64,000 nucleotides of DNA from contig NZ_CP040504.1 in assembly GCF_005886145.1 (NCBI RefSeq), forward strand, positions 2,438,059 to 2,502,058, written 5' to 3'. Every line of letters starts with the position of its first letter. Position 1 is the first letter of the stretch. Under the pieces are notes generated by a model. That model ran no database searches, was not told the origin of the DNA, and saw only the letters and a list, made by a program, of their open reading frames with translations. Below, in pieces: positions 60,944-64,000 of this stretch. The translations under genes were made by a program, and so were the position numbers. This DNA is from Neisseria sp. oral taxon 014 str. F0314. GTDB taxonomy: Bacteria > Pseudomonadota > Gammaproteobacteria > Burkholderiales > Neisseriaceae.

Positions 60944-61984
60944 ATGAAAGCAATGGTTTATCACGGCGCAAACGACATCCGTTTTGAAGAAAAACCCCGT
61001 CCGCAGATTATCGATCCGACCGACGCGGTGGTGAAAATCGTCAAAACCACGATTTGCGGTACCGACTTGGGTATTTGGAAAGGCAAAAACCCCGAAGTCG
61101 CCGACGGCCGTATTCTCGGCCATGAAGGCATCGGTATTGTAGAAGAAGTCGGCGAGGCTGTAAAAAACATCAAAGTCGGCGATAAAGTCATTATTTCATG
61201 CGTCAGCAAATGCTGTACTTGCGACAACTGCAAAATCCAACTCTATTCACACTGCCGCAACGGCGGCTGGATTTTGGGCTACATGATCGACGGCACACAG
61301 GCCGAATACGTTCGTACGCCTTATGCCGACAACAGCCTCGTTCCGCTGCCCGACAACGTCAATGAAGAAGTCGCCCTGCTGTTGAGCGACGCCTTGCCGA
61401 CCGCCCACGAAATCGGCGTGCAATACGGCGATGTCAAACCCGGCGACACCGTATTCATAGCAGGCGCAGGCCCTGTCGGCATGTCCGCCCTGTTGACTGC
61501 GCAACTATACAGTCCCGCCGCCATCATTGTTTGCGATATGGACGAAAACCGTTTGAAACTGGCGAAAGAACTGGGCGCGACCTATACCATCAGCCCCGCT
61601 TCAGGCGACGTATCCAAACAAGTTTTTGCCATCGTCGGCGAAGACGGCGTGGACTGCGCCATTGAAGCCGTCGGTATCCCCGCCACATGGAATATGTGTC
61701 AAGACATCGTCAAACCGGGCGGTCATATCGCCGTCGTCGGCGTGCATGGTCAATCCGTTGATTTCAAACTCGAAAAACTGTGGATTAAAAACCTCGCCAT
61801 TACAACCGGCCTAGTAAACGCCAATACCACCGAAATGCTGATGAAGGCAATTTCCAGCAGCTCCGTCGATTACACCAAAATGCTGACCCACCGTTTCAAA
61901 TTCAGCGAATTGGAAAAAGCTTATGACGTTTTCAAACACGCCGCCGAAAACCAAGCCATGAAAGTGGTTTTGGAAGCGGATTGA
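60944..61984 (+). CDS. Zinc-dependent alcohol dehydrogenase
   Basis: 346 residues of the medium-chain family. Catalytic zinc ligands Cys38, His60 and Glu61; structural zinc cysteines 90, 93, 96 and 104; NAD(P) site VFIAGAGPVGMSALL. The start at 60944 follows AAGGAG. The substrate is uncertain; relatives act on ethanol, isopropanol or butanediol. Preceded by a strong promoter with a palindrome. It ends beside an RHS remnant on the opposite strand. Confidence 0.88.
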   Translation: MKAMVYHGANDIRFEEKPRPQIIDPTDAVVKIVKTTICGTDLGIWKGKNPEVADGRILGHEGIGIVEEVGEAVKNIKVGDKVIISCVSKCCTCDNCKIQLYSHCRNGGWILGYMIDGTQAEYVRTPYADNSLVPLPDNVNEEVALLLSDALPTAHEIGVQYGDVKPGDTVFIAGAGPVGMSALLTAQLYSPAAIIVCDMDENRLKLAKELGATYTISPASGDVSKQVFAIVGEDGVDCAIEAVGIPATWNMCQDIVKPGGHIAVVGVHGQSVDFKLEKLWIKNLAITTGLVNANTTEMLMKAISSSSVDYTKMLTHRFKFSELEKAYDVFKHAAENQAMKVVLEAD

Positions 61985-62020
61985 TTTAGAGGAAATTTTT
62001 GTGTGGGGGAGGGGGACAAT

Positions 62021-62140
62021 CCCCCACAAGTCTGAATAGTTGCCGAACCACAGCAGCCTTCCCTCCCCGTCGGTCATCTCCCGCGGCAGGCCGATCTGGT
62101 CGCAGTGGAAGTAGTTGACCTGCCGTCGGGTACGGTTTTC
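62021..62140 (-). pseudogene. RHS core stub
   Basis: On the minus strand one frame reads ...RQVNYFHCDQIGLPREMTD, GEGRLLWFGNYSDLWG and then stops resembling anything. This is the conserved RHS motif found before the toxin tip of RHS proteins (H-x-D-x-x-G-x-P-x-x-x-T-D). No start, no upstream RHS repeats and no downstream tip are present. It reads in frame after the stop of the Cys-rich ORF at 62162. Such stubs mark orphan toxin cassettes in Neisseria. Confidence 0.75.
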
Positions 62141-62161
62141 AGACGGTCTAAAGAACGTGAA

Positions 62162-62449
62162 TTATTTTCCGATGGGGAAAGTATCAGAGCATTTATGTAT
62201 CTTGTATTTTTCCCAATGGAATTGACGAATGTCTTCTTCTGAGGCGTTGGTTATTTTTGATTTTATTGAATATTCCATAAATTTATTTTGTTGATGATTC
62301 AAGTCATCCTCGTTTTTCCAGCAGCTCATGCACTCATCACAGCAGAAAAATAGGTTGTTTAAGGCAACATTCCTCTTAATAATGAGCCTTCCTTGCCCAT
62401 CACATATAGGGCATTCTTTGTACTAAAAGCAGTTGGGACTAGTATTCAT
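62162..62449 (-). pseudogene. Cysteine-rich ORF with an in-frame amber stop, possible immunity gene
   Basis: From ATG 62449 the frame reads MNTSPNCF, then TAG (62423-62425), then YKECPICDGQGRLIIKRN and on to the stop at 62162-62164. Total 95 codons. Zinc-ribbon-like cysteines (CPIC...CCDECMSCW) fill the first half; the second half is charged and helical. It may be a single-base nonsense mutant of an immunity protein. No strong ribosome site precedes the ATG. It lies directly upstream of the RHS stub, the usual place of an immunity gene. Confidence 0.55.
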
Positions 62450-62695
62450 CTTGTTGGGTATTCTATTAACAATTCGGTGGCGGGATTAGTGGAATATGCG
62501 GTATGGGGCAATGCGGGGATTGGAAAGTTCGACAGGCCGTCTGAAAGGTTTTTTTCAGACGGCTTTACTACGGATTTGTTGGATCGCGACCCAACCTACA
62601 TTTGCCGCACATTTGGCGCGAACTGATAAAAAAATGAACTGGAGTGTTTTCAGACTGCATATTGAATATGCTATATGCAGGTTATGGTTTGCCAA
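62450..62695. other. Gene-free spacer with uptake-sequence hairpin
   Basis: Contains the hairpin AGGCCGTCTGAAA/TTTTTTCAGACGGC (62534-62563) and a GTTGGATCGCGACCCAACCTAC palindrome-like stretch related to 3220-3245. A plus-strand reading through it (LVGYSINNSVAGLVEYAVWG) exists but runs over the hairpin and lacks a ribosome site. Confidence 0.5.
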
Positions 62696-63061
62696 TTACA
62701 CATAATTTCCTATCTTTTCTCTTAAAAACATAAATATCTTCACCCACAAAGGCGTAATTAATCCCCAAATTCCGCCAAATATTAATCCTTCAAAGAGCAT
62801 AAAATTTTCCCTTTTGATTTGTATGGCTAATCCCAGCAACATTCCGATTAACATTTGAATTATGGATAAGTATTTAATATTTTTTCTTTCTAATTCTAAA
62901 TGGAACAATATTACTAGGAAAAATGAAATTATCGGTACGCCGAGCAATTTAAATGTGAAATCAAGTGTTCCGTAATAGGCTAAAAATACAGAAAACAGGA
63001 ACCACCATATTAAAATACTCAACCAGTATTTTCTAATAAATTTATTGATTGCCGCAAACAT
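62696..63061 (-). CDS. Small four-helix membrane protein
   Basis: 121 residues from MFAAINKFIRKYWLSILIWW at 63061. About four hydrophobic segments and few polar residues; very AT-rich. It starts 11 bases after the stop of the 51-residue ORF, so the two are one transcript. Membrane proteins of this size occur as immunity proteins to pore-forming toxins, but no homology is recognised, so that is only a suggestion. Confidence 0.6.
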   Translation of the reverse strand: MFAAINKFIRKYWLSILIWWFLFSVFLAYYGTLDFTFKLLGVPIISFFLVILFHLELERKNIKYLSIIQMLIGMLLGLAIQIKRENFMLFEGLIFGGIWGLITPLWVKIFMFLREKIGNYV

Positions 63062-63071
63062 ATGAAATTTC

Positions 63072-63227
63072 CTATTCGCAAGAAGAATTGCTGAATACAC
63101 TATGTTCTTCACCACCAACTATAGTTTTAATCAGAAAACTAGCTGCTGTTACGGTAGCTCCTATTGCTGCAAATTTTTTAATTGAGATACATTGTTTGCT
63201 GCATTTTATTCTATCCTTTTCCTGCAT
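63072..63227 (-). CDS. 51-residue ORF with one hydrophobic segment
   Basis: Starts MQEKDRIKCSKQCISIKKF at 63227 and ends with TAG at 63072-63074. A basic Cys-containing head is followed by AAIGATVTAASFLI, a short hydrophobic stretch, and an acidic tail. The ribosome site is weak and an in-frame stop lies ten codons upstream. Adjacent genes on both sides are 11 and 20 bases away on the same strand. May be a real short gene or a remnant. Confidence 0.4.
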   Translation of the reverse strand: MQEKDRIKCSKQCISIKKFAAIGATVTAASFLIKTIVGGEEHSVFSNSSCE

Positions 63228-63247
63228 GACATCTATCTTTTTAAATT

Positions 63248-63832
63248 CTATGATGGACTATTGTGGTTAATAAGGTTTTCTATATATGAGGCATTATTAA
63301 TCAGAGTGTTTTCTCCCAGTATTTTTAACGCTTCAGGTTTATCAAATAACAGCCATTCGAAAAAATTCTTCATTGTTGTCAACTCATCTCGGTTTAGGTA
63401 CTGCAGTGAATCTTTTAAGTTCTTCTGATAGATTAAGTCGGTAATGAAGCTCTGAAGGTTAGTTGGGATGTCTGATACATTAAGTTGAATATTAATGATG
63501 ATTCTGGGTAATAGGTAGTTTATTCCTTCGGAGGAAAAGAAAGTCCACGACACTAAGTGGTGTTCATCAATATTAACTTTATTAATATCAGTATTTTCGT
63601 AGTAACCAAAGTCATCGCCATATTCCGACATGACGTAACGGTCATTTTTGTATTGATTAGAGACGATACCCTGTAAAGGCAGTTGTCGGTAAGGTATTTG
63701 ATAAATAGTAGGCATAAAAATGTCCCTAATAAAATTTATGGCAATAGGTTCTTGCAGTTGTTGTAAGTATTCCACGCTTGCGTGATTGCCTGTCCATGAC
63801 CAGAGTCCCCTCCTTCCCAGCATTTTTTTCAC
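63248..63832 (-). CDS. Unknown AT-rich protein, possible immunity protein
   Basis: 194 residues from GTG 63832, or 191 from ATG 63823; neither has a good ribosome site. Soluble and acidic. FSSEGINYLLPRIIINI in the middle, then a helical C-terminus (LNRDELTTMKNFFEWLLFDKPEAL). The pattern loosely recalls small soluble immunity-type families with a W-F-x-x-E-G-x-x-x-x-LP core; unverified. The first 20 residues (MLGRRGLWSWTGN) look unlike the rest and are more GC-rich, as if the start were rebuilt by recombination. Confidence 0.55.
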   Translation of the reverse strand: MKKMLGRRGLWSWTGNHASVEYLQQLQEPIAINFIRDIFMPTIYQIPYRQLPLQGIVSNQYKNDRYVMSEYGDDFGYYENTDINKVNIDEHHLVSWTFFSSEGINYLLPRIIINIQLNVSDIPTNLQSFITDLIYQKNLKDSLQYLNRDELTTMKNFFEWLLFDKPEALKILGENTLINNASYIENLINHNSPS

Positions 63833-63874
63833 GTCGACTACGAGAGCTTGCCAAATTGTGTATTTATTGGAAGA

Positions 63875-64000
63875 TTACTTTTTGATACCGTTTTTATTTT
63901 TTATTAGCCAAGATGAAATTAGACTATCAAACTCTTCAATACTTAGAATATCTGGAGATAATTTTCCATTTAAACAAGAATAGATATACACTTTTTCATC
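63875..64000 (-). CDS. C-terminal end of a further AT-rich gene running off the window
   Basis: The minus strand is open from the window edge for 41 codons to a TAA at 63875-63877, reading DEKVYIYSCLNGKLSPDILS, then IEEFDSLISSWLIKNKNGIKK. Composition and strand match the genes to its left. The 3' end of an immunity-like or toxin-associated gene is likely, but nothing more can be said. Confidence 0.55.
   Translation of the reverse strand, partial: DEKVYIYSCLNGKLSPDILSIEEFDSLISSWLIKNKNGIKK

Follow-up and report, generated by a model that had tools for sequence, protein, structure and literature searches.

The right-hand end of the window holds the remains of an array of Rhs toxin tips and immunity genes. 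By the window we mean the whole stretch of DNA analysed, the last 64 kb (C1:2438059-2502058) of the single 2,502,058-base contig (C1) of Neisseria sp. oral taxon 014 str. F0314. Its final two kilobases have a GC content of 0.40 and 0.34, against mostly 0.50-0.60 elsewhere in the window, and their open reading frames (ORFs) lie on the minus strand. A first-pass annotation of the sequence was right to describe an AT-rich 2-kb minus-strand block here. Read on the minus strand from position 64000 down, the block contains the end of gene E, a tip tail, gene D, a 47-base tip piece, a broken tip tail and gene B. After B come a 73-base piece of array remnant, gene A with a stop codon, and an Rhs-core stub without a tip. 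The features are given below in window coordinates. Fetched loci and genomes are cited by their L and G numbers.

63875..64000, minus strand: E, a small immunity-type gene cut at the contig end, which leaves its 3' part (41 codons); homologous to an ORF in L052
63736..63828, minus strand: remnant with the last 30 codons and the stop of an Ntox16-kind toxin tip; matched by tails in L047, L046 and L048
63248..63715, minus strand: D, an intact putative orphan immunity gene of 155 amino acids; five relatives in fetched Neisseria loci
63191..63241, minus strand: piece of about 47 bases of a third Rhs toxin tip; matched by the genome's own second rhs tip and four other loci
63075..63210, minus strand: broken tail of the B-cognate toxin tip; long Rhs ORFs in L049, L043 and L042 end in matching sequence
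62696..63061, minus strand: B, an intact putative orphan immunity gene for a small hydrophobic (membrane) protein of 121 amino acids; five Neisseria relatives
62474..62546, minus strand: fragment that recurs in an array remnant elsewhere in this genome; 91% identity to L010 9538-9611
62162..62449, minus strand: A, a cysteine-rich (zinc-ribbon-like) immunity-type gene with an in-frame stop at codon 9; matched by ORFs in L044 and L050
62018..62140, minus strand: terminal Rhs-core stub without a toxin tip; Pfam RHS match and identity to the genome's own rhs gene
60944..61984, plus strand: adh, a zinc-binding alcohol dehydrogenase-type gene, the flank outside the array; Pfam ADH_N and ADH_zinc_N

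The last two kilobases are a collapsed Rhs toxin-tip/immunity array, and the locus is a type VI secretion system (T6SS)/Rhs locus. The array boundary is the end of adh. In the 6 relatives compared, homology to this genome stops at window positions 61985-61987. The proposed Rhs-core stub is real: it matches the Pfam family RHS (PF03527, E 1.1e-11), and its 96 bases at 62036-62131 are 99% identical to the genome's own rhs gene at C1:26976-27071. Relatives carry the same segment in many copies within their arrays.

The two longest ORFs of the block measure 194 and 140 amino acids with permissive starts. Homology favours shorter starts, which give D 155 amino acids (from 63715) and B 121 (from 63061). 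Even these lengths are above chance, because first-order Markov shuffles of the block seldom or never give such ORFs. The longest ORF reached at least 155 amino acids in 2 of 1000 shuffles, and the second reached at least 121 in none of 1000. An ORF of at least 51 amino acids was the longest in 976 of 1000, so a 51-residue ORF is at chance level.

Gene B has five relatives in four other Neisseria genomes, with 50-78% identity. Three of these five copies (L042, L043 and L049) are directly after a long Rhs ORF that ends in a tip. The piece that precedes B in the window, 63075..63210, corresponds to the ends of those ORFs. Its last 36 residues show 81% (L049), 58% (L043) and 61% (L042) identity, and its reading frame is disrupted relative to all three. 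The 51-residue ORF (63072-63227), previously proposed as a small immunity gene, is mostly this broken tail of the B-cognate tip, so we rejected that proposal. In four of the five comparisons, B has dN of 0.155-0.21 and dS of 1.07-1.42, that is, dN/dS of about 0.12-0.16. These ratios indicate that B is under coding constraint. The gene occurs in 5 of 83 genomes of the family, all of them of this genus. Its cognate tip had nothing above the cut-off in Pfam or NCBIfam. The weak transporter matches below the cut-off probably reflect hydrophobic helices. The toxin might act on membranes, because its antidote B is a membrane protein. B would then probably counter a family-less tip of a membrane-acting kind. 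The predicted structure of B was of low confidence (pLDDT 58) and was not used.

Gene D has five relatives in the fetched Neisseria loci (35-64% identity), one of them in its own genome at C1:531984-532454. In two of the five, L047 and L048, both from N. wadsworthii, D is directly behind a tip that matches Pfam Ntox16 (PF15523), with E 8e-9 and 5e-7 and scores of 36.0 and 30.4 bits (the cut-off is 25). The remnant ahead of D in the window, 63736..63828, shows 83% (L047), 69% (L046) and 48% (L048) identity to toxin tails. A toxin tail ahead of D was found in these three loci only, and in L046 it is the remnant alone. From this pairing, D should neutralise Ntox16-type toxins. Its best structural model is all-helical, with a mean pLDDT of 90.4 (61-79 in the other four models), and it had no match in the PDB at E <= 0.001. 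The relative in the same genome belongs to a third rhs locus near C1:532000 (L011, C1:525001-545000). There the D-family paralogue (35%), a pentapeptide-repeat protein and small ORFs follow an rhs ORF of 1381 codons.

Neither D nor B matched a model in Pfam, NCBIfam or PADLOC, in agreement with the suggestion that some immunity genes here are of unrecognised type. Each was found in 2 of 300 genomes of order-level samples (seven of the genus, own included): this genome and one congener. The small membrane protein and the soluble protein of the first-pass annotation, B and D, fit its idea of immunity genes kept after the loss of their toxins. Its extension of that idea to every ORF of the block holds in part. 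It agrees with D and B and fails for the 51-residue ORF, which is toxin debris. The cysteine-rich ORF exists as the frame 62449-62162 (gene A), and one of its two relatives follows a tip; the gene itself is broken by an in-frame stop at codon 9. The last gene, E, is cut at the contig end.

Gene A shows 75-76% identity to uninterrupted ORFs in L044 and L050. In L044 its relative is directly behind an Rhs tip. The uninterrupted relative at L050 12355-12630 has no Rhs tip ORF adjoining and is possibly an orphan immunity gene. E has 67% identity over 24 amino acids to a small ORF of another Neisseria genome (L052 7001-7255). This ORF gave no Pfam match and comes after an Rhs tip that is itself split into two frames. 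The piece at 63191..63241 has 83% identity to the genome's own second rhs tip (L010 7456-7502) and 84-91% to the four other loci. The counterpart of 62474..62546 (L010 9538-9611) runs into an rhs start and lies just upstream of an rhs 5'-end fragment.

The other end of the contig carries the T6SS genes. It encodes 342 codons of an rhs gene that runs off the contig start, on the same strand as the block. Next to it, Pfam identified genes for TssC (VipB), Hcp, TssF, a VgrG-type protein and IcmF/TssM; the names of the remaining T6SS genes near the contig start are our own assignments. A second rhs gene, on the vgrG side (C1:23496-27584), has a Tox-PAAR-like match (E 6e-17). The only Pfam match of the N-terminus of the tssA-side rhs is DUF6531. 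The cluster thus has an rhs gene at both ends, with the PAAR-like domain only in the vgrG-side one, as in T6SS-B. Behind the second rhs gene is a row of four small ORFs that match no Pfam family (L010 7594-10241, C1:27594-30241).

Hcp is present in 15 of the 46 genomes of the genus. A full or near-full match to the tssA-side rhs N-terminus was found in 14 of the 46 (own included), all among those 15. One of the 14, G027, matches three quarters of it; the fifteenth genome with Hcp, G026, has a partial match. It is at most about 5 kb from hcp in 13 of the 14, and in G029 the two are on separate contigs. Behind the tssA-side rhs of G029 come a small ORF and an orphan rhs fragment. The first-pass annotation had suggested looking for a full rhs gene to the right of the window. 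The 342 codons of rhs at the contig start and the second rhs gene beyond them would lie on that side, provided that the two contig ends are neighbours, as we infer. An absence of rhs or toxin genes within about 20 kb to the right, joined with matches of the ORFs to unrelated families, is not what we found.

In the reading that we consider likely, an Rhs toxin-tip/immunity array behind the tssA-side Rhs gene of a T6SS-B type cluster has decayed, and the block is its 3' end; D and B are intact and most likely make working orphan immunity proteins. Several observations lead to this reading. The contig starts inside an rhs gene of the same strand beside T6SS genes; relatives of B (3/5), D (2/5) and A (1/2) sit directly behind Rhs tips; and matching toxin remnants precede D and B in the window. 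The coding constraint on B and the closeness of the tssA-side rhs N-terminus to hcp in the genus point the same way. Successive tips would have been displaced by recombination through the repeated Rhs-core segment, a route suggested by the 99% identity of the 96-base stub segment to the genome's own rhs gene. Most toxin DNA would then have been lost by deletion, leaving the toxin tails, the terminal stub and the immunity genes. If expressed, D would counter Ntox16-type toxins and B its cognate tip, both delivered by T6SS-armed neighbours.

Several points weigh against this reading. The broken gene A is a sign of decay. An Ntox16 tip directly before D was not seen in L045 or L011, and neither L046 copy of B was seen behind an intact tip. 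For D, dS was saturated in all four comparisons, and for B it was saturated in the fifth, with L049. The constraint on B, a between-species measure, may go back to a period in which the toxin was still there. The contig ends are unjoined in the assembly, with the rest of the rhs gene in the gap between them, so the adjacency to that gene is probable rather than observed.

D and B might be functionless, intact by chance or through recent arrival, in an array of inert debris. All toxin pieces in the block are fragmentary, A carries its stop, and the array terminates in a tipless stub, as such debris would. However, D and B have the full length of their relatives, and ORFs as long as theirs are rare in shuffles. 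B is under constraint, and relatives of both genes are intact in streptococcal loci, where one B copy (L083) diverges at its end. We therefore judge this explanation unlikely, but the most serious of the rivals. The array could also be a fragment that does not lie behind the T6SS rhs gene, if the contig ends are not neighbours. They do not continue each other as printed, and the rhs gene is cut at the contig start, so that its remainder falls in the gap. Moreover, seven relatives that have both adh and hcp on one contig (G006, G019, G035, G036, G040, G044 and G045) show more than 150 kb between the two, and for this reason we rejected adh as the usual T6SS insertion site. On the other hand, the assembly is a single contig with a completeness rating of 100%, Rhs-array sequence of the same strand stands at both of its ends, and the missing part is what an assembly would lose from a repeat-rich rhs gene. 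Separate placement thus seems improbable, and the block probably adjoins the tssA-side rhs gene across an assembly gap. We give very little credence to an unrelated AT-rich island (a prophage, a toxin-antitoxin cluster or housekeeping genes). The low GC and the small ORFs without families are what such an island might show; every part of the block, however, was traced to Rhs cassettes. A phage origin was rejected, as megablast gave no near match in 50,697 phage records.

Two side observations concern the contig and its flank. The single contig, although rated 100% complete, appears to lack, at a minimum, the remainder of an rhs gene at its ends; a repeat probably left a gap in the assembly there. 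In one relative, adh is followed by a region of which a part, presumably his genes, is at C1:921030-924081 in our genome; this too speaks against adh as the usual T6SS insertion site.

The architecture of the window is of a known type. The published systems are compared here from passages of the cited papers. In Snodgrassella alvi, a bee gut Neisseriaceae, Rhs loci have a full rhs gene at the 5' end, followed by truncated Rhs pieces and immunity genes, an arrangement that the study explains by C-terminal displacement (PMC5727410). Two of these loci have tipless truncated Rhs genes at their 3' ends, and orphaned immunity genes occur with pseudogenised toxins, some with nonsense mutations (PMC5727410). 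These loci explain the architecture of the window well, including the tipless 3'-end stub. Repeated Rhs-core segments before variable tips, as in a C-terminal displacement array, are found in our case too; an immunity gene behind its cognate tip is found in the relatives, and the window keeps the tails only. In contrast with S. alvi, the window is without nearly all toxin DNA, none of the curated models searched recognises D or B, and Streptococcus and Veillonella have related cassettes as well.

Commensal Neisseria with T6SS-B have rhs genes at both ends of the cluster, the one upstream of tssA without a PAAR-like domain and the one downstream of vgrG with it (PMC10210955), which is the layout of this genome. 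N. cinerea has a T6SS with Rhs effectors, cognate immunity proteins and one possible orphan Rhs tip (PMC8263058). Array remnants of the kind seen in the window and the D and B families are not described in those passages of PMC10210955 and PMC8263058. Likewise, maf islands have downstream rows of toxin-tip cassettes followed by immunity genes; they differ in having the MafB carrier protein where the window has an Rhs-core stub (PMC4287609). Polyimmunity loci, known from Firmicutes too, are tandem orphan immunity genes that serve as a defensive reserve (PMC3482391). Such a reserve also resembles the acquired interbacterial defence of gut Bacteroidales.

We scanned named genomes for D and found eight loci: two in N. 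wadsworthii, five in Streptococcus and one in Veillonella infantium. The Firmicute copies have 40-41% identity to D. Four of the Streptococcus loci carry B, with 71-74% identity. Rhs fragments are scattered through all six Firmicute loci, and those among the matches listed share a single orientation. TssC, the single T6SS gene tested, was absent in 6/6 Firmicute genomes and present in N. wadsworthii. Rhs-fragment matches occurred in 10 of 284 Streptococcus-group genomes. Six of the ten had at least 10 matches, spanning about 25-58 kb among the matches listed, and the other four had one to three each. In one of these four, G512, the identity is only 40%, and the match may be a native Rhs gene. 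In the Veillonella group, such matches occurred in 3 of 14 genomes.

The island of S. infantis ATCC 700779 (600486-660404, L100-L104) measures 60 kb with 33% GC. It is flanked by ftsY and zwf, and beyond these by smc and uvrB. The same ftsY-zwf flanks match in S. timonensis, S. sp. Marseille-Q0941 and S. xiaochunlingii, so that four Streptococcus genomes have the island there. It contains 35 clusters of Rhs pieces, with 51/51 alignments on one strand, and relatives of both D and B. We considered the non-overlapping ORFs of at least 70 codons on the Rhs strand (97 ORFs; those cut by the 20-kb pieces were excluded). Seventeen are Rhs pieces. Twenty-one of the other 80 match fetched Neisseria arrays, with protein identity up to 95%. 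Pfam families among these 80 include SUKH, Imm43, barstar, Imm-NTF2, Imm21 and Imm22, and toxin domains such as TNT, WHH and AHH. The longest strong DNA match to Neisseria has 95.5% identity over 1237 bases. The gene at the ftsY edge has 83% identity to the first of the four small ORFs behind the second rhs gene of oral taxon 014.

The island also carries neisserial uptake cores, 34 in all. Of these, 27 have the GTCGTCTGAA form, which we take to be an uptake dialect of the N. mucosa group. This form dominates the uptake cores in the fetched stretches of G007, G019, G023 and G026. In 100 Markov shuffles of the island, the mean was 0.12 cores and the maximum 2, and no core was found in the roughly 30 kb and the 61 kb of flank examined. 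The five other Firmicute 20-kb loci have 4-11 cores each. The smaller Veillonella island is between a corA-like gene and a transporter-like gene. The cassettes of V. infantium (L077 8000-16500) match those of a Neisseria array at DNA identities of up to 98.5%, and those of streptococcal loci at 85-98%. Contamination was rejected as the source of the streptococcal islands, given the flanks ftsY, smc, zwf and uvrB and their recurrence in three more Streptococcus genomes. The size of the six Firmicute contigs (0.28-1.88 Mb) also counters it. Polyimmunity loci are described as always free of intervening toxin cassettes (PMC3482391). The streptococcal islands differ in being interspersed with Rhs pieces and neisserial uptake sequences. 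Because both are present, the source of these islands is readable from the DNA.

We tentatively propose, at somewhat less than even confidence, that streptococci and veillonellae of the mouth take up Rhs immunity cassettes from Neisseria by natural transformation and archive up to 60 kb of them in the chromosome, and that these Gram-positive and diderm Firmicutes thereby gain protection against the toxins of neisserial neighbours. The immunity genes of the window would belong to the same cross-phylum pool. A first captured Rhs piece would offer homology for the next capture, so that the archive would grow in one orientation, and the cassettes would be retained because their immunity genes protect. 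The islands may be partly passive. The T6SS is usually held to act on and between Gram-negatives. Protection in Firmicutes could concern other delivery routes, because of this range of targets and because streptococci possess their own Rhs-like WapA toxins (PMC12704120). Among open-access papers, judged by title or start of abstract, we found none on islands of neisserial Rhs immunity genes in streptococci or veillonellae; most subscription papers lay outside the search. The proposed cross-phylum capture is the novel part of this work, and the array of the window alone follows a known architecture.

Two immunity families, D and B, come out of the window together with their candidate toxin partners, and D points to how Neisseria may be protected against Ntox16-type Rhs tips. 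For the islands, the uptake signature lets the direction of transfer be read from the DNA. If the cassettes protect, neisserial weapons would exert selection on Gram-positive bacteria that live alongside Neisseria in the mouth, which departs from the usual view of the T6SS.

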